Source: Marivita lacus
GTDB lineage: Bacteria; Pseudomonadota; Alphaproteobacteria; Rhodobacterales; Rhodobacteraceae
Length of the DNA stretch: 64,000 nucleotides
Assembly (NCBI RefSeq): GCF_014637725.1
Contig: NZ_BMFC01000008.1
Span: 1 to 64,000, forward strand
Reading direction: 5' to 3'
Below, one piece after another: positions 6,877 through 42,691 of this stretch (position 1 is its first letter; each line of letters opens with the position of its first letter). Below the pieces are notes generated by a model that had not been told where the DNA came from, searched no databases, and saw nothing but the letters and a program-made list of their open reading frames with translations. A program made the position numbers and the translations under genes.

Positions 6877-8262
6877 GGAGTTATTGTCAAATCTGGTGTC
6901 CAAGCGATCATCATGCGGCGGTTAGCTGCTGGTTTATTGGCTTGATGCCGTTGACGAAATCGACGCCCTGGATGACGTCGGCGAGATGAACGAAGCCGCG
7001 CAGCTTGCGCCAGCTTTGCTCAGCGCATTGTCCGAGTTTGAACATCATGTGAAGCATGCCGTCCCGGCTGAGACAGCCTTTGGTGCGCTTGGTCCGGTGC
7101 CGGATCGTGGCGAACGCGCTTTCGATCGGGTTTGACGTCCGGATGCTCTGCCAATGCTGGGCTGGGAAGTCGTAGAATGTCAGCAGTTCATCCCGATCCT
7201 TGATCAGGCATTCGGTCGCCTTCGGATATTTCGCCTCGAAGGTTTCGATGAACAGATCGAACGCAGCATGGGCATCCTCGCGGGTCTCGGCCTGCCAGAT
7301 GTCGTGAAGCATCTTCTTAGCCTTGGGCTGGGTGCGCTTGGGGAGGTAATTGAGCACATTGCCCGTTTTATGCATCCAGCAGCGCTGTTGGCGCGTGGTT
7401 GGAAGAACCTCTTCCAATGCCGCCCAGAACCCCATGGCCCCGTCACCGGTGGCCAGCTTCGGAGCAGCGAGCCCACGGGCTTTGAGGCCGAGAAGCACCT
7501 CGCGCCAGCTTTGCGTGCTTTCCCGGACGCCATCTTCAATGGCCAGAAAGTGCTTCTCGCCACGGGCGTTGACCCCGATCACAACGAGCACGCAGAGCCG
7601 ATCATCAGTGTCACGGAGCCCGCTGTAGATGCCGTCCGCCCAGATATAGACCCACTCGTCACGGCTCAGATCGGCCTTGCGCCAATCATTGTATTCCGCC
7701 GCCCACTGGCCTTTCAAACGTGAAATTGTCTTGGCAGAGAAACCGGTTGCCTCCGGGCCCAAGAGCATCTTCAGAGCCGCGCCCATTTCGCCTGTCGAGA
7801 TACCCTTGAGATAGAGCCAGGGCAGCGCGGCTTCGATAGTTTTGGCCTTTCGGACGTAGGGCGGCACAAGCGCCGAGCGGAATGTCACGGGCTTGCCGTC
7901 CTTCGCCCGTACCTTCGGCACTTTCACCGCGACCGGCCCGATCCCCGTCTGCACCGCGCGCTCTGGATGATATCCGCTGCGAACAACCGCAGCACGGCCT
8001 TCTGCTGTCCGGCGTTCAGCAAACGCGGCGAGAAAGGCGTCTCTCTCAGCTTCAACAGCGGCCTGAAGCAATTCCCGGGCTCCTTTTCGCAGAAGGTCTG
8101 TCAGCGGGTCCGTGATGGCGTCTCGACCCGCAAAATCAATGATGGTAGCGTCGTCCATGATGGTGGTGCTCCTTTGGATGGTGGCTTGTGTCGCAACAAC
8201 AAACCAACCAGATGCACCGCCGTCATTCAAACCGCCCAGACACCAGATTCAGCCATAACTCC
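6877..8262 (-). mobile_element. IS256-family insertion sequence
   Basis: A complete-looking element of about 1386 bp. The ends form imperfect inverted repeats: GGAGTTAT plus AATCTGGTGTC at 6877-6900, mirrored at 8239-8262, with about 20 of the first 24 bases matching. One transposase gene fills it. ATTTTGG occurs at both junctions (6872-6878 and 8264-8270), probably a slightly altered target duplication; the exact border is ambiguous by one or two bases. The element sits inside a PRC-barrel gene and is the most recent-looking insertion in the window, because the coding frames around it still match. Confidence 0.85.
6911..8158 (-). CDS. IS256 family transposase
   Basis: Mutator-type DDE transposase catalysing cut-and-copy movement of the surrounding element. 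The 415-aa product contains VKVPKVRAKDGKPVTF, the first catalytic Asp in YIWADGIYSGLR, the second in KLATGDGAMGFW, the conserved QQRCWMHKTGNVLNYLP and the late SNPIESAFATIRHRTKRTKG with the catalytic Glu. The frame is intact, so the element may still be active. I chose the ATG of MDDATIIDF at 8158; the upstream extension in frame runs into the terminal repeat and looks untranslated. Confidence 0.93.
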   Translation of the reverse strand: MDDATIIDFAGRDAITDPLTDLLRKGARELLQAAVEAERDAFLAAFAERRTAEGRAAVVRSGYHPERAVQTGIGPVAVKVPKVRAKDGKPVTFRSALVPPYVRKAKTIEAALPWLYLKGISTGEMGAALKMLLGPEATGFSAKTISRLKGQWAAEYNDWRKADLSRDEWVYIWADGIYSGLRDTDDRLCVLVVIGVNARGEKHFLAIEDGVRESTQSWREVLLGLKARGLAAPKLATGDGAMGFWAALEEVLPTTRQQRCWMHKTGNVLNYLPKRTQPKAKKMLHDIWQAETREDAHAAFDLFIETFEAKYPKATECLIKDRDELLTFYDFPAQHWQSIRTSNPIESAFATIRHRTKRTKGCLSRDGMLHMMFKLGQCAEQSWRKLRGFVHLADVIQGVDFVNGIKPINQQLTAA

Positions 8263-29348: not shown

Positions 29349-29755
29349 AGGTGCAGGCAGATGGCATGTTCATGTCCATCTTGGATCAGGCGCAGATCGA
29401 CTTCTGCTCACATCGTCGAGGAATGTTCCTGCCTCCGCCAGGCAAGCTTGCGCAGGGTTTTCGGTCGGCGATGCGGGTCTGGAGATCGGCTCGGTCAGCG
29501 AGGCTCAGGTAAAGGCGGATCTCCTGGCGTCTCATGCCCCGACACTGACACGGCTGGCCGTTAGATCGGAATCCTCCGTCGGGTGCAGGCCACGGGCTTC
29601 TAGATGCCATGACAGCGGTAGACTTGGCTGCCCAACTCAAAGCTGGACGTCTCATATGAGGCGCCAGAAACACACACACCGCTACCGCGGCTCGTTTTGA
29701 TGCGAATCACACGTATTTGATATTTGTTCCCAAATTTCCCCGCTAATTCTTTCTG
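29349..29755. other. gap upstream of the copper block
   Basis: About 400 bases with no convincing gene. The last 100 bases are AT-rich for this genome (GTATTTGATATTTGTTCCC) and probably carry the promoter for the copper genes. I looked for a CueR/MerR-type dyad and could not confirm one. Confidence 0.4.
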
Positions 29756-30163
29756 ATGATCGGTCGGAAAGCACGATTCGCCTCTTTGGCGACGATACGC
29801 ATTGTGGGGGCACTGCTCCTGCTCACTGCTTTCGCGTTTCAGTCGCTGAGTTATGCGTCCGGTCCTGCTGATCTGCTGACGCAGGAACAGCATCACGAAC
29901 AAGATCATGCATTGGCTGATCACCCGATCGAGTGCCCGATGGCGGCACAAGACATGATCGCTTCAGCGCTTGTCGATCAATGCCCAGATCATTTTGCATC
30001 TGGACATTGCTCTGTCACACAATGGTGTTTGCAAATCACCGGCGGTTTGACAAAAATAGACTTCCACGGAGTTCTGACGGCTCAAAGCCTCCGCTTCGAA
30101 GACGAACGCGCCTTGAAATCGCGCCCCTCCAGTCCCCAAGACCGCCCTCCCCGCCTCGTCTGA
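29756..30163 (+). CDS. small secreted or anchored protein at head of copper operon
   Basis: A 135-aa protein with an N-terminal signal or anchor helix (IRIVGALLLLTAFAFQSLSY), then a short mature part rich in His, Gln and Cys (QEQHHEQDHALADHPIECPM, ASGHCSVTQWC). Small proteins of this shape often precede Cus/Cop genes in roseobacters; the His/Met/Cys content suggests metal binding or sensing in the periplasm. I do not recognise a named family. It lies 93 bases before cusB and is probably co-transcribed. Confidence 0.55.
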   Translation: MIGRKARFASLATIRIVGALLLLTAFAFQSLSYASGPADLLTQEQHHEQDHALADHPIECPMAAQDMIASALVDQCPDHFASGHCSVTQWCLQITGGLTKIDFHGVLTAQSLRFEDERALKSRPSSPQDRPPRLV

Positions 30164-30256
30164 TCGTTCTTCGATGAGCTGTTGCACCTCTGCTTCAGCC
30201 CGCTTTGACCGTTTGGAAATGACCCGCCTTTGCGCTGGTCCAGACCGAGGCATACC

Positions 30257-32677
30257 ATGCGTGGACGATATTCAGCCCTGAGCATTCTTGCGCTAGCCGC
30301 AGGTGTTGCTGGGGGCATCTACTTGGAACGATTGTATTTGAACCCGGAAGACATGTCCGACGATGACGGGCCAGAGGTGCTCTACTGGGTGGCTCCGATG
30401 GATCCGAATTTCCGCCAACCCGGTCCGGGAAAATCTCCAATGGGGATGGATCTGATCCCGGTCTATGCGGGGCAGGAACCCTCTGGGGATCCCGCCGAGG
30501 TGACGCTGTCAGCCGCCGAGATCAACGCCATCGGAGTCCGCACGGCCCTGGCGCAGGTTTCGGAGATTTCACACCGCATCGAGACGGTTGGGTTTGTAGG
30601 CTACGACGAACATCTGACCAGTCACGTCCACACCCGTGTCGATGGGTGGATCGAAGTCCTGAACGTACGTGCGGTGGGCGACCAGGTCCGCAAGGGCGAC
30701 GTGCTTTTCGAATTGTTCTCTCCCGAGTTCGGCATTGCAAGTTTTGACTTCCTTCGAGCCAGCAAAGAAGGGATCGGCATTTCCCTCGAAGCGGCGCGCA
30801 ACAAATTGCGCAGCCATGGTGCGACGGACAGTCAGATCGCAGAGATCGAGGAGACCGGTGAAATGGCGCGGCGCATCCGTGTCGAAGCTCCGCGCGATGG
30901 CGTGGTGATCGGCCTTGCTGCAGCGGACGGCATGTTTCTGCAGCCAGGCACTCAAGCTGTCTCGATCACCGACCTCAGCGAAGTTTGGCTGATCGTCGAT
31001 GTGTTTGAACGCGACATTGCTCGCATGACAGACGACATGCGCGCCATCGCACGGTTCGAGCATTTGCCGGGGCGGACCTTTGAAGGTGAGATCGATTATG
31101 TTTATCCCGAGCTTGACCCGCAGACCCGAACACTCCCGGTGCGCCTGAGTTTCGACAACACGGAAGGTCTCTTGAGGCCCAACATGTTCGGCACCGTCAG
31201 TCTTGTTCCGGGCCACTCCCGGACCGCTCTCACCGTGCCGACAGAAGCGATCATCCGTACGGGGACAGCGGAACGCGTGATCCTGAAAAGCGGCGAAGGC
31301 ACGTTCATGCCGCGCCTGATCACAACCGGACTGCGCGACAATTTTGGTGAAGGTGGGCGCACGGAAGTGGTCCAGGGACTCGCGCCGGGTGAGGAGGTGG
31401 TTGCCTCGGCCCAATTCCTGATCGACAGCGAAAGCGCGCTCAGCGCCGGACTGATGCGCATGGCTCCAACCGATGAAGCGCCTGCGCGCGGCACCGGCGA
31501 ACTTATTGCTTTGGACCACTCGGCACGTATGGCGACCATTCAGCATGGCGAGCTCGAGAGTCTCGATTGGCCTGCCATGACGTCTCGCTTTCCGGTTCGT
31601 TCAGATGTGTCGCTGGATCGCATTGCGCCGGGCATGCAGGTCGCTTTTCGCGCAGCGCGTGGAGCGGATGGGCTACTTGGCTTGCTGGATCTCGGGAGCG
31701 ATGATGGCATTGCAGCGACCGGCAACGGGAAAATCTTGGCGGTCACGGCAGATGGCACGCTGACACTGACACACGACCCAATCCCGGAACTGGGTTGGCC
31801 CGCGATGCAGATGGATATGCCCGTCATTGGGTTCGATCCGTCCACAGTGCCGCTGGATGCTCCTGTCGAATTCGACCTCAGCAAGGGTGACGATGGTCTC
31901 TTTACCATTGTTGCCGTCCGCGCCGACGGAATGACGACAGCAGAGGCGGGGGCAGAGGTGGCATCGATGGCCACCGAAGCGCCACCGATCATGGTATCGG
32001 GCATCATCGATGTGCTGAACCAGACTGCGGGCACAGCAACCATTTCGCATGGTCCGATTTCCGAGATCGGGATGCCCGGCATGACCATGGACTTTGCAAT
32101 CGCGGACACGGTGGACCTGTCGGCCCTTCCTGTTGGTTCTGAAACCATGCTGACCTTCGCTCGTCCTGACGGGATGACGATGGTCCTCGCAGCAGCTGAA
32201 CCTGTCGCTCCGCCGATTGTCGTGTCGGGAACGATCGATGCGATTGATGCGGAGGTCCGCCAGGCGACCATCAGCCATGGTCCGATTGTCGAGATCGGAA
32301 TGCCTGGAATGACCATGGACTTTGCCATCGACGAGGCGCTCGACCCGACGGCACTGCCTATCGGTATCGAGGTCGAAATGACTTTTGCACGACCAGACGG
32401 GATGACCATGATCCTCCGGCAGGCTGAACCGATGGCGGCCCCGATGGAAGTCCGTGGTACCATCAACGCTGTCGATCTTGACACGGGCATGGCCAACATC
32501 AGTCACGGCCCGATGACCGAGATCGGGATGCCCGGCATGACCATGGACTTTGCCCTCGATGCTGCACTTGATCCCGGTTCCCTTCCCGTGGGGAACGAGA
32601 TCGTGCTTCAGCTGCATCGCAACGCGGACTTCTCGATGACGCTGGTCGGCACACGCGCACAGGAGGTCATTCAATGA
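30257..32677 (+). CDS. cusB: CusB-type RND adaptor fused to five CusF-like repeats
   Basis: Periplasmic adaptor of a CusCBA copper/silver efflux pump. The 806-aa protein is about twice normal CusB length. An N-terminal membrane anchor (ALSILALAAGVAGGIYLERL) is followed by a heavy-metal-binding-like segment (YWVAPMDPNFRQPGPGKSPM) lacking the usual Cys, then barrel-sandwich, hairpin and beta-barrel adaptor domains to about residue 405. The rest is five CusF-like domains starting near 412, 489, 580, 656 and 732. Repeat 2 keeps the CusF Cu ligand set H/W/M/M (HDPIPELGWPAMQMDM). Repeats 3-5 have Met in place of the capping Trp (HGP..EIGMPGMTMDFA). Repeat 1 has lost the last Met. The stop overlaps the cusA start (ATGA). 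Confidence 0.9.
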   Translation: MRGRYSALSILALAAGVAGGIYLERLYLNPEDMSDDDGPEVLYWVAPMDPNFRQPGPGKSPMGMDLIPVYAGQEPSGDPAEVTLSAAEINAIGVRTALAQVSEISHRIETVGFVGYDEHLTSHVHTRVDGWIEVLNVRAVGDQVRKGDVLFELFSPEFGIASFDFLRASKEGIGISLEAARNKLRSHGATDSQIAEIEETGEMARRIRVEAPRDGVVIGLAAADGMFLQPGTQAVSITDLSEVWLIVDVFERDIARMTDDMRAIARFEHLPGRTFEGEIDYVYPELDPQTRTLPVRLSFDNTEGLLRPNMFGTVSLVPGHSRTALTVPTEAIIRTGTAERVILKSGEGTFMPRLITTGLRDNFGEGGRTEVVQGLAPGEEVVASAQFLIDSESALSAGLMRMAPTDEAPARGTGELIALDHSARMATIQHGELESLDWPAMTSRFPVRSDVSLDRIAPGMQVAFRAARGADGLLGLLDLGSDDGIAATGNGKILAVTADGTLTLTHDPIPELGWPAMQMDMPVIGFDPSTVPLDAPVEFDLSKGDDGLFTIVAVRADGMTTAEAGAEVASMATEAPPIMVSGIIDVLNQTAGTATISHGPISEIGMPGMTMDFAIADTVDLSALPVGSETMLTFARPDGMTMVLAAAEPVAPPIVVSGTIDAIDAEVRQATISHGPIVEIGMPGMTMDFAIDEALDPTALPIGIEVEMTFARPDGMTMILRQAEPMAAPMEVRGTINAVDLDTGMANISHGPMTEIGMPGMTMDFALDAALDPGSLPVGNEIVLQLHRNADFSMTLVGTRAQEVIQ
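31994..32557 (+). repeat. three tandem 228-bp coding repeats (CusF-like domains 3-5)
   Basis: Copies begin at 31994, 32222 and 32450, exactly 228 bases (76 codons) apart. The most conserved block encodes GPxxEIGMPGMTMDFA and is nearly identical at DNA level (GGCATGACCATGGACTTTGC or one mismatch). This points to recent in-frame duplication inside cusB. Confidence 0.85.
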
Positions 32678-35600
32678 TCCCTGCCATCATTCGCGCTTCC
32701 ATCGCCAACCGGGTCATCGTCGTTGCGCTGGCAATCATGATGGGCGTTGTCGGTATCTGGGCGATCCGAGAAACTCCCGTGGATGCGATCCCGGATTTGT
32801 CCGACGTGCAGGTGATCGTTCGCACACCTTTTGCAGGCCAAGCACCCCAGGTGGTCGAAGACCAGGTAACCTATCCTATCGCAACCGCCATGCTGGCCGT
32901 TCCCGGTGCCAGCGATGTCCGCGGGTTCTCGTTTTTTGGCGACAGCTACGTTTATGTCGTGTTCGAGGACGGCACGGATCTCTACTGGGCCCGGACGCGT
33001 GTCTTGGAATATCTCGGCCAGATCACGGCAAACCTGCCGGAAGGTGTGTCGCCCCAGCTTGGGCCGGATGCCACGGGTGTGGGCTGGATCTATCAATACG
33101 CCCTGATCGACCGCACCGGCGGTCATGATCTGGCGCAGCTGCGCACGCTACAGGACTGGTTCCTGAAATATGAATTGCAGACCGTCGACGGCGTGTCCGA
33201 AGTCGCCACCATCGGCGGCATGGTCAAGCAGTACCAGGTGGTCGTCGATCCGAACAAGCTGCGCGCCTTTGACGTGACCCTGGCGCAGATCCGGACTGCC
33301 ATCCAGAATGCCAACCGCGAAACCGGCGGATCGGTGATCGAGATGGGCGAGGCTGAATTCATGGTCCGCTCCACCGGCTATGTCAACGATCTTGCCGATC
33401 TGGCCAAGGCGCCCCTCATGGTGAACCAGCGGGGCGCGGCACTGACGCTGGGAGATGTGGCCGACATCCGTCTTGGTCCCGAGATGCGGCGCGGCGTTGG
33501 GGAATTGAATGGCGAGGGTGACGCCGTTGGAGGCGTCGTGATCCTGCGTTGGGGTGGCAATGCATTGGCAACCATCCAGGCGGTCGAGACCCGGATCGAG
33601 GAATTGCGCGCATCTCTTCCCGAGGGCGTCGAGATCGTCACCACCTATAATCGTGCGGGAGTGATCGAGCGCGCAATCGAGAACCTGCAGAAGAAACTGA
33701 CCGAGGAATTCATCGTTGTCATCCTGGTCTGCGCGGCTTTTCTTCTACACATCCGGTCTTCCCTGGTGATCCTGCTGTCGCTTCCCTTGGGCATCTTTGC
33801 AGCCTTCATCATCATGAAATTCCAAGGCGTGAATGCCAACATCATGTCCTTGGGCGGCATTGCCATCGCGATCGGGGCGATGGTGGATGCGGCTATCGTG
33901 ATGATCGAAGCGATGCACCGACGGTTGGAAGAGGAAAAACTGAACAATGAGAACCGGTGGCGCATCGTCACCGAATGCGCAACAGAGGTCGGACCTGCGC
34001 TGTTCTTTTCGCTGGCGATCATCACGGTCAGCTTCCTGCCCGTCTTCGTGCTGGAAAGCCAGGAAGGGCGCCTTTTCAAGCCGCTGGCCTTTACCAAGAC
34101 ATACGCGATGGCAGCGGCCGCCATGCTGTCGATCACACTTGTGCCGGTCCTGATGGGATATTTCGTGCGGGGACGAATCCTGCCGGAACGGAAGAACCCG
34201 CTGAACCGGATCGTGATCTGGATTTACCGTCCGTTCCTGGATGCCGCCGTCGCCTGGCCTTGGGCGACCACCCTGCTGGCTGGTGTCCTCGTGGCCTCCA
34301 TGTGGTGGCCTCTGCAGCGCATCGGAACGGAGTTCATGCCCGAACTCAACGAGGGTGATTTCCTCTATATGCCGACCCTCTATCCCGGTGTGTCCATCGG
34401 CAAGGCGCGCGAAGTCCTGCAGCAATCCGACAGGCTGATCGCGACAGTACCGGAGGTGTTGACCGTCCATGGCAAGCTTGGTCGTGCGGAGACTGCCACC
34501 GACCCGGCACCACTGACCATGATCGAGACGACCATCCAGTTGCGCCCAGAAGAGGAATGGCGCGACGGCATGACCATGGAGATGATCCGCAACGAACTGG
34601 ACCGTGTCGTGCAGATCCCTGGTGTGACGAACGTCTGGATCCAGCCGATCAAGAACCGCATCGACATGCTGGCGACCGGCATCAAGACCCCCGTGGGCGT
34701 CAAGATATCGGGTGCGGATTTGAGCGTGATCGAGCAAATCGGGATCGAGGTCGAGCGTGTCGTGGCGGGCATCGAGGGCACATCGTCGGCTTATGCGGAG
34801 CGCCCCATTGGGGGTCGCTTTGTCGAAATCGACGTCAACCGCGATGCCGCCGCCCGTTACATGATGACCGTGCGCGACGTGCAGGACGTGGTACAGACCG
34901 CCATCGGAGGCATGCAGGTCTCGGAGTCGGTTGAGGGGTTGGAGCGTTTCCCGATCAACCTGCGTTATCCTCAGGAATGGCGCAACAGTCCGGAGCGCTT
35001 GCGCGATCTGCCCGTGGTGACGCCATCGGGTGCTCATATCCCTCTGGGAGCGATGGCAGAGATCAAGGTGGTTGACGGTCCGGGAATGATCCGGTCGGAA
35101 AACGCACGTCGCACGGGGTTCGTATTCATCGACATTTCTGGACGCGATCTGGGTGGATACGTCACGGAAGCACGCGAGGTCGTCGCCCGCGAAGTGACCC
35201 TTCCACCCGGATACTCCATCGCGTGGTCTGGGCAGTACGAATACATCGAGCGCATGCAGGAGCGACTAAAGCTCGTCGCTCCCGCAACCTTGCTGATCAT
35301 TACGCTGATGCTCTTCATGGCCTTCAATCGAGTGATCGAGGTGGGCATCATCCTTGCCGCCCTGCCGGTGGCTTTGGCAGGCGGCGTCTGGTTTCTGTGG
35401 TATCTGAACTTTGACATTTCTGTCGCGGTCCTGGTCGGATTCATCGCTCTGGCTGGCGTGGCGGTGGAGACCGCCATCGTGATGCTGCTCTACCTCAACC
35501 TCGCCTGGGAGAAACGAAAGAAGCTGGTAATCGCAGAGGCACGCAAGATGACATCCCAGGATGTGGAGGACGTCGTGTTCGAGGGCGCTCTGCTCCGGGT

Positions 35601-35865
35601 GCGGCCCAAGGTGATGACCGTCGCAACGATCTTCGCCGGTCTGATCCCGATCATGTATGGCACAGGTACTGGATCGGAAATCATGCAGCGTATTGCAGCC
35701 CCAATGGTCGGTGGCATGGCCACAGCGACCCTTCTGACCCTTTTCGTGATCCCCTCGATCTTCGTGATCTGGAAACGGCTCGCGTTGAAACGAGTCAATC
35801 GTGAATTGCAACAGTCCGCCATCACGAGGCCGCCATCTCCTCCCAGCGCGGTTCCCGCGGAATGA
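32674..35865 (+). CDS. cusA: CusA-type heavy-metal RND efflux pump
   Basis: Inner-membrane proton-driven Cu(I)/Ag(I) exporter of the HME-RND family, 1063 aa, the usual length. N-terminal IIRASIANRVIVVALAIMMG and ETPVDAIPDLSDVQVIV are classic. TM4 carries GGIAIAIGAMVDAAIVMIEA with the proton-relay Asp. The porter domain contains RPIGGRFVEIDVNRDAAARY, and the C-terminus has GTGSEIMQRIAAPMVGGMAT. It overlaps cusB by four bases and is followed after 35 bases by cusF. No CusC outer-membrane factor gene is present in the window, so one must be supplied from elsewhere. Confidence 0.95.
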   Translation: MIPAIIRASIANRVIVVALAIMMGVVGIWAIRETPVDAIPDLSDVQVIVRTPFAGQAPQVVEDQVTYPIATAMLAVPGASDVRGFSFFGDSYVYVVFEDGTDLYWARTRVLEYLGQITANLPEGVSPQLGPDATGVGWIYQYALIDRTGGHDLAQLRTLQDWFLKYELQTVDGVSEVATIGGMVKQYQVVVDPNKLRAFDVTLAQIRTAIQNANRETGGSVIEMGEAEFMVRSTGYVNDLADLAKAPLMVNQRGAALTLGDVADIRLGPEMRRGVGELNGEGDAVGGVVILRWGGNALATIQAVETRIEELRASLPEGVEIVTTYNRAGVIERAIENLQKKLTEEFIVVILVCAAFLLHIRSSLVILLSLPLGIFAAFIIMKFQGVNANIMSLGGIAIAIGAMVDAAIVMIEAMHRRLEEEKLNNENRWRIVTECATEVGPALFFSLAIITVSFLPVFVLESQEGRLFKPLAFTKTYAMAAAAMLSITLVPVLMGYFVRGRILPERKNPLNRIVIWIYRPFLDAAVAWPWATTLLAGVLVASMWWPLQRIGTEFMPELNEGDFLYMPTLYPGVSIGKAREVLQQSDRLIATVPEVLTVHGKLGRAETATDPAPLTMIETTIQLRPEEEWRDGMTMEMIRNELDRVVQIPGVTNVWIQPIKNRIDMLATGIKTPVGVKISGADLSVIEQIGIEVERVVAGIEGTSSAYAERPIGGRFVEIDVNRDAAARYMMTVRDVQDVVQTAIGGMQVSESVEGLERFPINLRYPQEWRNSPERLRDLPVVTPSGAHIPLGAMAEIKVVDGPGMIRSENARRTGFVFIDISGRDLGGYVTEAREVVAREVTLPPGYSIAWSGQYEYIERMQERLKLVAPATLLIITLMLFMAFNRVIEVGIILAALPVALAGGVWFLWYLNFDISVAVLVGFIALAGVAVETAIVMLLYLNLAWEKRKKLVIAEARKMTSQDVEDVVFEGALLRVRPKVMTVATIFAGLIPIMYGTGTGSEIMQRIAAPMVGGMATATLLTLFVIPSIFVIWKRLALKRVNRELQQSAITRPPSPPSAVPAE

Positions 35866-35900
35866 CTTCGAAAGCTTTACCTCAACCAGAAAGGCAACAC

Positions 35901-36245
35901 ATGAACCACCTGACTTTGATCACAGCTGCAGTCTTGCTCACGGCACCTGCGGCGTTTGCCCAAATGAACCATGGCAACATGGACCATTCCAACATGCCGA
36001 TGACAGGCGCACAGATGGAAGGTGCGGTGCATACCAAGGCCGTCGTGAATTCTATTGCGGACGGTACTGCCAACGTCAGCCATGATCCGATCCCGGAAAT
36101 CGGTTGGCCGGCCATGACCATGGACCTCGCTCTGGCTCCGGAGGCACAGATGATGGGTGAGGTCTCTGCGGGTGACAGCGTTACCCTGATGCTGATCAAG
36201 GGTGATGACGGCATGTACATGATCGGCGCGATGATGCCCGAGTGA
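35901..36245 (+). CDS. cusF: CusF periplasmic copper chaperone
   Basis: A 114-aa protein with a signal peptide (MNHLTLITAAVLLTAPAAFA), a Met/His-rich linker (MNHGNMDHSNMPMTGAQM) and one CusF OB-fold domain. The Cu(I) site is canonical: HDPIPEIGWPAMTMDLAL gives His, Trp and two Mets. It should hand periplasmic Cu(I)/Ag(I) to CusBA. The ATG at 35901 has AAAGGC ahead; an upstream start overlapping cusA is less likely because it would bury the signal peptide. Confidence 0.92.
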   Translation: MNHLTLITAAVLLTAPAAFAQMNHGNMDHSNMPMTGAQMEGAVHTKAVVNSIADGTANVSHDPIPEIGWPAMTMDLALAPEAQMMGEVSAGDSVTLMLIKGDDGMYMIGAMMPE

Positions 36246-36266
36246 TCTGGCTCGATGAAAAACGCA

Positions 36267-36299
36267 TCACAGGCAATGTCATCCAGACTTTGCCTGTGA
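36267..36299 (+). promoter_or_regulatory. perfect 10-bp inverted repeat between cusF and cytochrome c genes
   Basis: TCACAGGCAA (36267-36276) pairs with TTGCCTGTGA (36290-36299) around a 13-base loop. There is no T-run after it, so it is not a standard terminator. It may be an mRNA-stabilising or attenuating hairpin inside the operon, or a protein site. Confidence 0.5.
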
Positions 36300-36321
36300 C
36301 TGACGAAGGGAAGGAAAATTC

Positions 36322-36756
36322 TTGCGAAAGAGCTTCATACTTGGCGCGCTTGGCCTTGCCGTTCTGTTGGCCCTCGGATGGAACGCGTTCATTGAAGCGC
36401 CCGAACAACGGGCCGCAACGACAGGTGGCATCGGTGACGCATTGGTTGCCGTCTCTCTCCCTGACGCCTTGACTGGCAAGCAACAAATCGGTGCCCGGGC
36501 ATTCGAGACCAATTGTGCCACGTGTCACGGTGTCAACGCGGCTGGGCGCTATGGCATTGGCCCGCCCCTTGTGCACATCATTTACGAGCCCAGCCACCAT
36601 GGTGATCAGTCTTTTCACCTTGCCGTCATGAATGGTGTGCGAAGTCATCACTGGCCATACGGCAACATGCCCCCTGTTGACGGTCTGACAACAGGCGACG
36701 TGGATATGATCGTGGACTATGTTCGCGCGTTGCAACGGTCCAACGGTATCAACTGA
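36322..36756 (+). CDS. periplasmic or membrane-anchored c-type cytochrome
   Basis: A 144-aa mono-heme cytochrome c starting with TTG (GGGAAGGAAAATT before it). An N-terminal signal/anchor (FILGALGLAVLLALGWNAFI) precedes heme motif CATCHG near residue 65-70. The distal Met is in YGNMPPVDGL. It is encoded among copper-resistance genes, so it could deliver electrons to or from the multicopper oxidase or the respiratory chain; that link is inference. Neighbours on both sides are within 80 bases and on the same strand. Confidence 0.85.
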   Translation: MRKSFILGALGLAVLLALGWNAFIEAPEQRAATTGGIGDALVAVSLPDALTGKQQIGARAFETNCATCHGVNAAGRYGIGPPLVHIIYEPSHHGDQSFHLAVMNGVRSHHWPYGNMPPVDGLTTGDVDMIVDYVRALQRSNGIN

Positions 36757-39881: not shown

Positions 39882-41201
39882 TTAGAGCTGTGACGCCCAT
39901 CGGGGGTGTTCGTCATCCACGACGAAAGCGTGCGCATGATGCCGCTCGCCCTTGAGATGCGGGTGATCGAGCGGCAGGTTTTCGTGGGTGTGCTCGAGAA
40001 CCTCCGGGTCTTCTTTTGGCCAAAGTCGCAGGGCCGTCAGCGCCCCGAAGCAAGCCAGCGCCGCCAGCACACCGAGGGCCATCACAGGGCCAAACCGGGT
40101 CATCAGCCAGCCCGAGAGCGGATAGGTCGCAAGCCAGCAGGCATGGGAGAGCGCGAACTGGGCGGCAAACAGCGCAGGTCGGTCCTCGACATGGGCAGAG
40201 CGGCGCAGGAGGCGACCAGACGGTGTCAGCACTGCTGAATAGCCCAAACCCACCAGAAGCCATGCGCCCAGAAGGAACAACCAGTCCAGACCGAGCATGG
40301 CAATCTCTGCGGCCAGCGCCAACAGAACAATCACCATGAGCGCCGCACCTGCAACCATGACCGGTCGATCGGCCATGCGGTCAAGCACTTTCGGCAGCAC
40401 CAGCGCCGCCAGCATCGAGCCTGCGCCGAAGGCGAACATGGTCCAGGCAAGTGCGGCCTCATTCAGTCCCAGCGTGCCACGCACCAGCACAACCGAGTTG
40501 ACCAGCACCATCGCACCGGCCGCCGCGGCGGCAAGGTTCAGTGCCAGAAGCCCGCGCAGGCGCGGCGTGGCGAGATAAATGCGGATGCCCCGCGTGGTCC
40601 GGTCATATATGCCGCGTGGTGCGGAGGCCTTGGGGCTTGGCAGCAACACGGACACGACCAGAAGCGCTGAGGCCGCGAAGCCCACAACTGTCCCGAGAAA
40701 CAGAGACTGGTAGCTCATCACCGCCAGAAACAGCGCGGCAAGGGTCGGGCTGACGATATTCTCCAGATCATAGGCCAGTCGTGACAGAGAGAGTGCGCGG
40801 GTATAGCGGGCCTCCTCGGGCAGGATATCCGGAATGGTTGCCTGAAAGGTCGGCGTGAAGGCGGCCGAGGCTGATTGGAGCAAGAAGATCAGCACATAGA
40901 CCTGCCATATCTCGGTGACAAACGGCAGGCAGAGCGCTGCCCCCGCCCGAACGACATCCAGCCCCACCAGAAATGCGCGTCGGTTCACGCGCAGAGCGAA
41001 GGCGCCGGCGATCGGCGCGATGCCGACATAGGCAACCATCTTGATGGTGAAGACAGTGCCAAGCACCATCCCCGCATCGTCACCCGCCAGATCATAAGCC
41101 AGAAGCCCGAGCGCAACGGTTGCAAGCCCCGTGCCCAGCAGGGCCACGACCTGTGCGAGGAACAGGTGGCGATAGGTACGGTCGGCGAGAATGCTAAGCA
41201 T
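39882..41201 (-). CDS. MFS exporter with His-rich C-terminus (NrsD/NreB-like)
   Basis: A 439-aa major facilitator with about twelve helices, starting MLSILADRTYRHLFLAQVVA. The last 45 residues are cytosolic and His-rich (EHTHENLPLDHPHLKGERHH), as in nickel exporters NreB/NrsD, where the tail binds Ni(II). It starts nine bases after the metal-responsive repressor gene on the same strand, an operon. The long upstream open frame is antisense to the repressor region and not coding. Nickel or cobalt export is my best inference. Confidence 0.8.
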   Translation of the reverse strand: MLSILADRTYRHLFLAQVVALLGTGLATVALGLLAYDLAGDDAGMVLGTVFTIKMVAYVGIAPIAGAFALRVNRRAFLVGLDVVRAGAALCLPFVTEIWQVYVLIFLLQSASAAFTPTFQATIPDILPEEARYTRALSLSRLAYDLENIVSPTLAALFLAVMSYQSLFLGTVVGFAASALLVVSVLLPSPKASAPRGIYDRTTRGIRIYLATPRLRGLLALNLAAAAAGAMVLVNSVVLVRGTLGLNEAALAWTMFAFGAGSMLAALVLPKVLDRMADRPVMVAGAALMVIVLLALAAEIAMLGLDWLFLLGAWLLVGLGYSAVLTPSGRLLRRSAHVEDRPALFAAQFALSHACWLATYPLSGWLMTRFGPVMALGVLAALACFGALTALRLWPKEDPEVLEHTHENLPLDHPHLKGERHHAHAFVVDDEHPRWASQL

Positions 41202-41209
41202 GTCAGACC

Positions 41210-41470
41210 CTATAGGTAACGGGCGATGCTCTTGAGGTCGGACCGATCCTCGGGCACATGTTCTGTATCGAGACAGTGATCCATGTGGTCGTGAATCAGG
41301 GCGCGCTTGGCGTTGACCACGGCCTTTTCGACCGCATAGAGTTGCTGCGCGATCTGCAGGCAGGGCTTGCCGTCCTCGATCATGGCGATGACAGAGCGCA
41401 GGTGCCCGTCGGCCCGTTTCAGCCGAGCAACCAAAGCCGGATGGCTTGCGTGGATATGCGGTTTTGTCAT
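41210..41470 (-). CDS. CsoR/RcnR-family metal-sensing repressor with InrS-type ligand set
   Basis: An 86-aa all-helical DUF156 repressor. The family core KRADGHLRSVIAMIEDGKPC and LYAVEKAVVNAKRALIHDHM is clear. The metal fingerprint is H5-C37-H62-C66 with spacings 32, 25 and 4. This equals the His-Cys-His-Cys pattern of the nickel sensor InrS and differs from RcnR, which has His at the last position. It should repress its own operon with the MFS exporter and perhaps the divergent HupE operon. The ATG at 41470 starts MTKPHIHASH; the longer open frame overlaps the divergent gene. Confidence 0.88.
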   Translation of the reverse strand: MTKPHIHASHPALVARLKRADGHLRSVIAMIEDGKPCLQIAQQLYAVEKAVVNAKRALIHDHMDHCLDTEHVPEDRSDLKSIARYL

Positions 41471-41480
41471 AGAACAACGG

Positions 41481-41499
41481 TATCCTCCCCTGGGGGATA
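41481..41499. promoter_or_regulatory. candidate operator for the CsoR/InrS-type repressor
   Basis: TATCCTCCCCTGGGGGATA is a near-perfect inverted repeat with a C/G-tract centre, the type of A-form-like site bound by CsoR, RcnR and InrS. It lies 10 bases before the repressor ATG and 45 bases before the divergent gene, able to control both. Confidence 0.6.
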
Positions 41500-41544
41500 A
41501 AGCAAGACGACCTCGCTTTGGATCGCAGGAACGGGCAGGCAAGA

Positions 41545-41901
41545 ATGATGAAAGCCTTGGCGACATTTGGACGGCAGGCGTTTGCGACCCTGCTCTGCCT
41601 GTCGCTGATCGTCTGGTCGGTTCTGCCAGCCGCGACCCATGCTCCAGCAGTCCTGGAGACGATCGAGGATCATCTCGAGGTGATCGTCGTGCATGGCCAT
41701 TCGCATGGTTTTGCAGAGGATCTGGCATGGGTGTTGCACGGCCACAGCCACGACTCGGCCGATCACGATCACAATCAGCCTTTCCTCGCCACTGACTCTG
41801 GTTCGGATGCCGCGACCATCGAGCGGTCTTCGTGGCGGTTGTGGGTGTCGCTCGGCGGTCCCGCCCAGAGCTTCAGGATCGACCGACCTCCACGTGCGTG
41901 A
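41545..41901 (+). CDS. His-rich membrane or periplasmic small protein
   Basis: A 118-aa protein with one N-terminal hydrophobic helix (FATLLCLSLIVWSVLPAAT) and a His-rich mature part (VVHGHSHGFAEDLAWVLHGH, HDSADHDHNQ). It reads like a metal-buffering or metal-delivery protein. The ATG at 41545 follows GGCAGGCAAGA; the next codon is also ATG. It heads the divergent HupE operon, 60 bases before hupE-like. No family name known to me. Confidence 0.6.
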   Translation: MMKALATFGRQAFATLLCLSLIVWSVLPAATHAPAVLETIEDHLEVIVVHGHSHGFAEDLAWVLHGHSHDSADHDHNQPFLATDSGSDAATIERSSWRLWVSLGGPAQSFRIDRPPRA

Positions 41902-41962: not shown

Positions 41963-42691
41963 ATGACCTCGATCTCACGGGGCTTGAACGCGCTGGCATC
42001 ACGCCGCGCGACGGCCCTGACACTCACGGTGCTTGCCCTTTATGCCTCAAGCGTGGCGCAAGCGCTGGCCCACAACGTTACCCCGGGTGACGCGGGCTAC
42101 ATTCAGGAAATATGGGGAGTGCATATCATTCCCTTCATTTATCTCGGCGCCAAGCACATGGTGACGGGCTACGACCACATCCTGTTCCTCTTTGGCGTCG
42201 TCTTCTTCCTTTACCGGATGAAGGATGTGGCCGTTTATGTCAGCATCTTCGCCATCGGACATTCGGTCACGATGCTGCTGGGCGTCTGGTATGGCTGGGG
42301 CATCAACGCCTATATCATTGACGCGATCATCGGCCTGTCGGTGGTTTACAAGGCGCTGGACAACCTTGGGGCCTATCAGAAATGGTTCGGGTTTCAGCCT
42401 GATACCAAGGCTGCGACGCTGATCTTCGGACTGTTCCATGGCACGGGTCTGGCCACCAAGATTCTCGAATACCAGATCGCCGAAGACGGGTTGCTTGCCA
42501 ACTTGCTGGCTTTCAACGTCGGTGTCGAGATCGGCCAGCTTCTCGCCCTTTCGGTCATCCTGATCGTGATGGGCTATTGGCGGCGCAGCCCCAACTTCAT
42601 GCGGCAGGCCACCGTCGCCAACATCATCATGATCGTCCTCGGCGTTATCCTGACTGGACAGCAAATCGCCGGTTACATCGCCTCGACATGA
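41963..42691 (+). CDS. HupE/UreJ-family membrane protein
   Basis: A 242-aa membrane protein of the HupE/UreJ family associated with nickel or cobalt transport. After a signal-like start (ALTLTVLALYASSVAQALAH) come six or so helices, with the family motifs GAKHMVTGYDHILFLFGVVF (the HxxxGxDH-type nickel motif), FAIGHSVTMLLGVW and FGLFHGTGLATKILEY. These His/Asp residues are the expected metal path. It follows the His-rich gene and precedes the anchor protein gene by 18 bases, forming an operon. Confidence 0.87.
   Translation: MTSISRGLNALASRRATALTLTVLALYASSVAQALAHNVTPGDAGYIQEIWGVHIIPFIYLGAKHMVTGYDHILFLFGVVFFLYRMKDVAVYVSIFAIGHSVTMLLGVWYGWGINAYIIDAIIGLSVVYKALDNLGAYQKWFGFQPDTKAATLIFGLFHGTGLATKILEYQIAEDGLLANLLAFNVGVEIGQLLALSVILIVMGYWRRSPNFMRQATVANIIMIVLGVILTGQQIAGYIAST

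Follow-up and report, generated by a model that had tools for sequence, protein, structure and literature searches.

The alphaproteobacterium Marivita lacus encodes a CusB-type efflux adaptor that carries five CusF domains in a single chain, with each type of candidate metal site fixed by its position in the chain and with a gene for a small CutF-like exported protein directly upstream. The gene lies in what we call the window, the whole stretch of 64,000 nucleotides analysed (positions 1 to 64,000 of contig NZ_BMFC01000008.1, assembly GCF_014637725.1). We consider it probable that the protein is a tethered, graded Cu(I) capture array on the adaptor of a Cus-type pump, under co-translational copper control. 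Rather more tentatively, it may be read as a graded Cu(I) relay, in which three site classes stand in fixed order (H-W-M-Ser/Thr first, H-W-M-M second and two or three H-M-M-M after these) and synthesis is gated by a copper-sensing nascent peptide, the stop-codon region of its gene masking the ribosome-binding site of the adaptor.

A first-pass annotation made from the sequence alone had described the fusion; its observation is partly confirmed, holding except for a recent duplication of the last three domains, and both the fixing of site type by position and the CutF-like gene were absent from it. Already known are single CusB-CusF fusions, HMMM sites and CutF-like sensors; what appears to be new is that site types are mixed in an ordered array, and that this array is tied to a CutF-like gene. 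In the available portions of the open-licence literature searched we found no description of a multi-CusF adaptor, of an ordered mixed array or of the tie to a CutF-like gene, and the available parts of PMC10656224, PMC9302797, PMC6769254, PMC3707914 and PMC8478169 do not describe a multi-CusF adaptor either.

Architecture of the adaptor and its operon

The adaptor incorporates; 1) an N-terminal methionine site (HMBD), in which M48, M62 and M64 are invariant in our alignment and aligned with methionines in the N-terminal part of E. coli CusB; 2) a HlyD_D23 adaptor core; and, 3) five CusF_Ec stretches (PF11604, E 5.5e-81), D1 to D5, each of them above the PF11604 cut-off in a search of the family genomes (Table 1). 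The HlyD_D23 core, the similarity to CusB and the adjoining cusA gene place it in the CusB/HME adaptor family, with the NCBIfam CusB model PRK09783 matching at 177.8 bits, under its curated cut-off of 390. At 806 residues it is, as the annotation had put it, about twice the normal size; the 407-residue chain of E. coli CusB, by contrast, has no room for a CusF array.

Table 1. Features of the adaptor locus in the window, with the basis of each assignment.
Feature	Positions	Strand	Basis
CutF-like small exported protein, 135 aa	29756..30163	+	ORF, published CutF criteria
Anti-SD arm: last codons and TGA stop of CutF-like gene	30148..30171	+	Duplex pairing
SD arm of cusB, GAGG at 30247-30250	30233..30256	+	Pairs with anti-SD arm
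cusB-type adaptor with five C-terminal CusF domains, ATG start, 806 aa	30257..32677	+	ORF, Pfam, alignment, AlphaFold2
HMBD, N-terminal Met site, residues 43-69	30383..30463	+	Pfam
HlyD_D23 adaptor core (CusB/HlyD barrel-sandwich), residues 104-311	30566..31189	+	Pfam
CusF domain D1, site H-W-M-S	31484..31696	+	Site residues, alignment
CusF domain D2, canonical site H-W-M-M	31712..31924	+	Site residues, alignment, tree
CusF domain D3, site H-M-M-M	31988..32200	+	Site residues; modelled at low confidence
CusF domain D4, site H-M-M-M	32216..32428	+	Site residues, alignment, pLDDT 94.1
CusF domain D5, site H-M-M-M	32444..32656	+	Site residues, alignment, full-length model
CusA, RND Cu(I)/Ag(I) efflux transporter	32674..35865	+	Pfam, alignment
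Stand-alone CusF, site H-W-M-M	35862..36245	+	Pfam, site residues

The His ligands of the five domains are at 430, 506, 598, 674 and 750, a spacing of 76, 92, 76 and 76 codons, so that the 76-codon period claimed for D3-D5 is correct and is shared by D1-D2. The site assignments of the annotation also agree with ours: D2 keeps the full CusF set (H506-W514-M517-M519), D3, D4 and D5 all have Met at the Trp position, and D1 (H430-W438-M441-S443) is short of one Met, with a serine in its place. Judged by sequence, D2 to D5 thus have the His, Met and Met set with a Trp or Met cap, and are candidate Cu(I) sites.

Using AlphaFold2, we modelled the full protein from an alignment of the window's protein and 57 relatives. 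The model (mean pLDDT 82.3, pTM 0.49) has the CusB-type core, for which the best structural match is E. coli CusB (PDB 3ne5), and five strand sets of the CusF type; D1, D2, D4 and D5 are mostly at a pLDDT of about 90 or above, D3 is at 46-75 by block and the linkers are low, and the pTM is too low to place the array with respect to the pump. Modelled alone, D4 has a pLDDT of 94.1 and is closest to Cu(I)-CusF (PDB 2vb2, TM 0.82), with a TM of 0.79 to the CusF domain of SilB (PDB 2l55). The domain search and structure prediction proposed as checks by the annotation therefore come out in favour of a CusB-type adaptor fused to five CusF domains, with five PF11604 stretches and repeats that model as OB barrels, D3 at low model confidence. 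None of the eight alignments shown from two PDB sequence searches, with 9 and 10 hits, had an H-M-M-M site.

Downstream of the adaptor come cusA and genes for a stand-alone CusF and a cytochrome c, then copC, copD and a multicopper oxidase gene. Against E. coli CusA the transporter scores 1339 bits, and residues 573, 623 and 672, which we take to be the CusA Met triad, are all conserved in the alignment. The core, the N-terminal methionines, CusA and the CusF fold are thus alike in the two systems; in contrast, the E. coli operon includes cusC (PMC7558416), whereas the window's contig has no OEP protein, the two found by a whole-genome PF02321 search both being elsewhere. A close fusion among known systems is SilB of Cupriavidus metallidurans CH34, likewise a CusB-type adaptor core with a C-terminal CusF metallochaperone domain in one chain (PMC4446572). 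SilB has a single CusF domain, while the protein described here has five, in three site classes and in fixed order, with a separate CusF gene besides.

Site order, distribution and age of the array

A scan of genome contigs with an M-type domain found at least 362 stretches that encode a relative, and 80 loci, near-copies included, were kept among the matches listed, with one adaptor-type frame per locus classified with the CusF model. These gave 63 four-domain and 13 five-domain adaptors, a total of 76 that leaves out four loci which were cut, split or short (L100, L106, L111 and L113). Among these listed matches D1 has Ser or Thr in place of its last ligand in 76/76, with the first Met changed too in seven, and D2 is HWMM in 76/76; the later domains are HMMM in 164 of 165, a pattern for which the M-type query partly selected, D1 and D2 lying outside the query. 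One D4, in a Marivita MAG (locus L035), is without the cap Met (HTMM). The same order recurred in all 11 arrays of a separate family survey (PF11604 query, 198 genomes, one per genus), some of whose genomes are shared with the scan; in that survey 27 of the 198 genomes had a PF11604 match, and 11 of the 198 genera, the window's own genome counted, had a four- or five-domain array.

We compared the window's protein with 57 of 71 distinct relatives, leaving out L035, in an alignment of 58 proteins in which D3 is a gap in the four-domain rows. Invariant throughout are H430 and W438 of D1, the whole D2 site (H506, W514, M517, M519) and, further on, H674, M682, M685, M687, H750, M758, M761 and M763, and M441 is kept in 90% or more. 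For the pair formed by the window and L035, dN/dS comes to 0.03 for both the core and D2, 0.10 for D1, 0.20 for D4, 0.12 for D5 and 0.32 for the linker, values that are rough (dS 0.9-2.1), with D3 saturated and not computable. At that rough level, the other four array domains have been under purifying selection between the two.

These counts bear on another reading, in which the extra domains are a pure buffer that only soaks up periplasmic Cu(I) or Ag(I), with no handover to the pump. Four or five copies are what would be expected of a capacity trait, the H-Met3 sites should bind tighter (PMC7558416), and a separate HWMM CusF is still encoded in 66/75 loci, the contig ending soon after the adaptor in several of the other nine. 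However, D2 is canonical in every one of the 76 proteins and, in the one pair compared, is as constrained as the core, and a mere sponge needs neither fusion to an adaptor nor a fixed order of site types; we consider a pure buffer unlikely.

The question of how unusual such an array is was addressed in a phylum sample of 398 genomes, at least 119 of them with PF11604. Among the matches listed, 48 places with frames of at least 487 aa were taken and one place from the family survey was added, and 47 of these 49 have an adaptor core (L151, which is cut, and L163, a multicopper oxidase, were excluded). Twenty of the 47 listed adaptors have one HWMM domain, six have one HMMM domain and 21 have two domains, and in 16 of these 21 the second domain is without full ligands (RRAM, HWGM and others). 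Three or more CusF domains were found in 0/47, so that the survey of CusB homologues the annotation had called for indicates that arrays are not widespread. Three domains do occur fused to a CusB core on two Alteromonadaceae plasmids, Alteromonas macleodii pKD02 and Glaciecola pGLAAG01, but there all three are HWMM, or the third is degenerate behind two HWMM, without HMMM, and the gene directly upstream is an outer-membrane factor, unlike in the window.

Degenerate second domains, together with the loss of one Met ligand from D1 throughout the scan, would suit the idea that the domains are mainly there to lengthen the adaptor as spacers or to dock partners, with metal binding in second place. 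We nevertheless regard this as improbable, since the invariant columns include those of the D2, D4 and D5 ligands and all four site residues are kept in all but one of the 165 distal domains of the matches listed.

The replacement of Trp by Met is not in itself unusual. In a sample of stand-alone or shorter-frame CusF proteins, biased to the top Pfam scores, 44/60 are HMMM and 16/60 HWMM, and the literature recognises HMMM among CusF motifs (PMC5552934, citing Kim et al., 2010). Such proteins have the same four residues as D3-D5, but they stand alone or, as in 6/47 of the listed adaptors above, one to an adaptor, whereas in the window they are in tandem behind an HWMM domain. The Met cap is ordinary, therefore, and the mixed, ordered array is not.

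The one claim that must be given up is that D3-D5 are nearly identical at the DNA level and arose by recent duplication. In the 76-codon register identity is 67.5% for D3/D4, 54.8% for D3/D5 and 56.1% for D4/D5, dS is 1.06, 2.2 or saturated, and Tandem Repeats Finder reports no array; with identity of only 55-68% and dS of 1 or more, the duplications are old. A tree of the domains of 30 chosen array proteins (14 five-domain, 16 four-domain) and 19 other CusF domains gives a consistent picture, although its few columns (73) and unsettled bootstrap leave the finer points unsure. D2 domains form one clade (99/94), as do the 74 array domains at H-Met3 positions (100/93), and D1 is not a clean clade, with one long-branch row inside. 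Within the H-Met3 group, a clade (100/99) takes in 41 of 44 internal domains, with the terminal ones outside it, so that the split between internal and terminal domains is itself old. In the window's protein, the fourth domain falls with the only internal domain of three relatives that have four domains (98/97), and the third pairs with the third domain of L035 (100/93), also a five-domain protein, so that the extra domain, to judge by the sequences, probably predates the split of the two.

The distribution of the array is patchy. The full-length protein is present in 2 of 17 genomes of the window's genus (own included), 81 of 390 genomes in an order survey match the M-type profile, and 35 of the 390 have a best E below 1e-30, which we took as the mark of an array. 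Among 3454 plasmid records that match, 30 have a single place covering at least 80% of the query, and the best 24 of these 30 are from Roseobacter-group, Roseibium or Labrenzia bacteria. Five-domain copies occur in Dinoroseobacter shibae and Roseobacter litoralis, in the latter on plasmid pRLO149_83; we claim no plasmid status for the window, repC being found on contig C32 only and not on C8, the contig of the window. Growth of the repeat on mobile DNA, with domains duplicated and tolerated to little effect, would account for this patchiness, the plasmid-borne copies, the variable copy number and the one decayed site of L035, but given old duplications, purifying selection and position-specific conservation over many genera it is the least probable of the readings and can largely be set aside.

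The CutF-like gene upstream of cusB

The small gene that precedes cusB was compared with published criteria for CutF-like proteins (PMC9973294), which are fewer than 150 aa, a signal peptide, a Cys motif, PP in the last 15 residues and a same-strand gene downstream. It encodes 135 aa with a hydrophobic, signal-like start (judged by eye), the Cys motif CSVTQWC and the C-terminus ...SPQDRPPRLV, and ends 93 nt before cusB. In CutF of Rhodobacter capsulatus (cutFOG) a small exported Cys protein with a Pro-Pro-motif end likewise stands before a copper gene, whose Shine-Dalgarno sequence is shielded by a hairpin (PMC9973294). There are differences: the CutF motif is CxxxC and that of the window CX5C; CutF controls a multicopper oxidase, whereas the gene here precedes an array-bearing cusB; and the pairing arm in the window includes the stop codon of the small gene. 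Of four proteins tested one homologue (L054) matches DUF2946, the family assigned to CutF (E 1.8e-5), and the other three, the window's included, do not; the window's copy has no Pfam match above cut-off. As CusB is already listed among the genes downstream of CutF-like genes (PMC9973294), we see the link to cusB as an extension and not as a new class.

A CutF-like frame is directly upstream in 79 of 79 array adaptors (75 scan loci among the matches listed, the window and three plasmids), 76 found by script and three, in the window, L072 and L104, by eye. Seventy-three of the script-found frames have a tail of the RPPR, KPPK or RPPQ type, and the other three (L110, L112 and L114) have QPPR or HPPR. 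At random positions in array loci, some of them near a real frame, the script reported a frame in 118 of 2000 cases. With the same script, 0/47 of the listed one- or two-domain adaptors have such a frame, a control that covers the directly upstream position only, where other pumps often have the gene for an outer-membrane factor, and CutF-like genes have been found in front of an outer-membrane-factor gene (PMC9973294).

The end of the small gene can pair with the Shine-Dalgarno arm of cusB, with a predicted duplex energy of -19.2 kcal/mol in the window. Over 70 loci the two arms of the same locus give a mean of -13.7 kcal/mol, compared with -11.6 kcal/mol for arms swapped between loci, and 0/2000 permutations were as low; after dereplication to 42, 31 and 22 loci the figures were 0, 2 and 0 of 5000, the permutation ignoring kinship. 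Folded in full, the junction does no better than chance (z -1.17, 23/200 shuffles as good), and the arms pair poorly at some loci (L045, L101). Rfam gave no match on 29500-36400. Six promoter-like sites (mean of shuffles 4.4) and 17 terminator-like sites (mean 10.0, sd 3.5) were counted and are not used as evidence.

A proposed role in copper handling

Our proposal of a copper-controlled capture array would work as follows. When periplasmic copper is high, the CutF-like exported protein, while nascent, would probably permit translation of the adaptor, stalling at its C-terminal Pro-Pro motif keeping the end of its gene off the cusB ribosome-binding site. Once made, the H-Met3 domains at the C-terminal end may bind Cu(I) or Ag(I) tightly and stock metal at the pump. 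D2 (H-Trp-Met-Met) would, like soluble CusF, swap metal with the N-terminal Met site, whose methionines would hand it on to CusA, and D1, having lost one Met, could bind weakly or transiently, or serve for docking. A review gives the pump a stoichiometry of CusA3B6C3, with six adaptors (PMC7558416), and at five domains each there could be up to 30 modules.

The assignment of the distal H-Met3 domains as collectors and of D2 as exchanger is suggested by a review, according to which changing Trp to Met in CusF increases the affinity for Cu(I) (PMC7558416). The first-pass annotation had written of a tethered multi-site sponge with altered affinity; the anatomy of such an array stands, in the fold, the ligands and an operon with CusA and CusF, and the altered affinity has some support from that review. 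If the H-Met3 sites are the tightest, metal would not run downhill from them to D2, and the direction of flow is the weakest step of our explanation. Also counting against it are the loss of the D1 ligand in all 76 listed adaptors, the HTMM site of L035, the poor folding of the junction and the loci with weak pairing. Moreover, Roseobacter litoralis tolerated less copper than R. denitrificans, which is reported to be without the heavy-metal genes of the R. litoralis plasmid (PMC3141670), and this result does not fit simple copper resistance conferred by the array.

What the Trp cap does in CusF is not fully understood (PMC6235853). Here Trp- and Met-capped sites occur together in one natural chain, position-fixed over many genera, in which the effect of the cap can be tested, and if the relay were true, the fixed order would imply that whether a module collects or hands over is decided by its cap residue, Trp or Met. 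In the same locus a CutF-like copper sensor is linked to a pump adaptor through a pairing that is open to test, and the array may serve as a marker for copper handling in Roseobacters, in which it is sometimes plasmid-borne.

The gene preceding the array adaptors

In all 79 array adaptor loci inspected (those with four or five C-terminal CusF domains), the adaptor gene is directly preceded by a small gene encoding an exported Cys protein resembling CutF of Rhodobacter capsulatus. None of 47 one- or two-domain adaptors has such a gene at this place. Potential base pairing within the window copy of this region could hide the Shine-Dalgarno (SD) sequence of cusB.

Features of the window
Feature	Coordinates	Strand
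CutF-like small gene, with potential pairing over the cusB SD	29756-30256	
Mutator-family transposase	6911-8230	-
MFS transporter, adjoining the metal-sensitive repressor	39882-41477	-
Metal-sensitive repressor (Trns_repr_metal)	41210-41728	-
HupE/UreJ-type gene, beside the Trns_repr_metal repressor	41963-42691	

CusF sites in related proteins

The fourth CusF domain of the closest relative (L006/L035) reads EIGTTGMTMGF, lacking both the cap Met and the Pro, and this site is perhaps in decay. Ligands are also missing from the second CusF domain of the two-domain adaptors L115, L118-L120, L122-L126, L129, L131, L137, L140, L142, L148 and L157; the site letters of such degraded domains are RRAM, RRAK, RRAL, HWGM, HWGQ, HWGI and YWGM.

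Beyond the adaptors, a 706-aa frame (L163, G530:C17), called multicopper-oxidase-like from its motifs, carries a C-terminal CusF-like domain with an H-M-M-M site and a shortened loop. One genome, G689, appears to hold two separate array adaptors, in frames of 742 and 763 aa on contigs C1 and C3.

The outer-membrane partner

The M. lacus genome encodes two outer-membrane factor (OEP) family, TolC-like proteins, on contigs C4 and C17, and neither is on the contig of the window. As both sit apart from the copper cluster and off that contig, the Cus pump may borrow a TolC.
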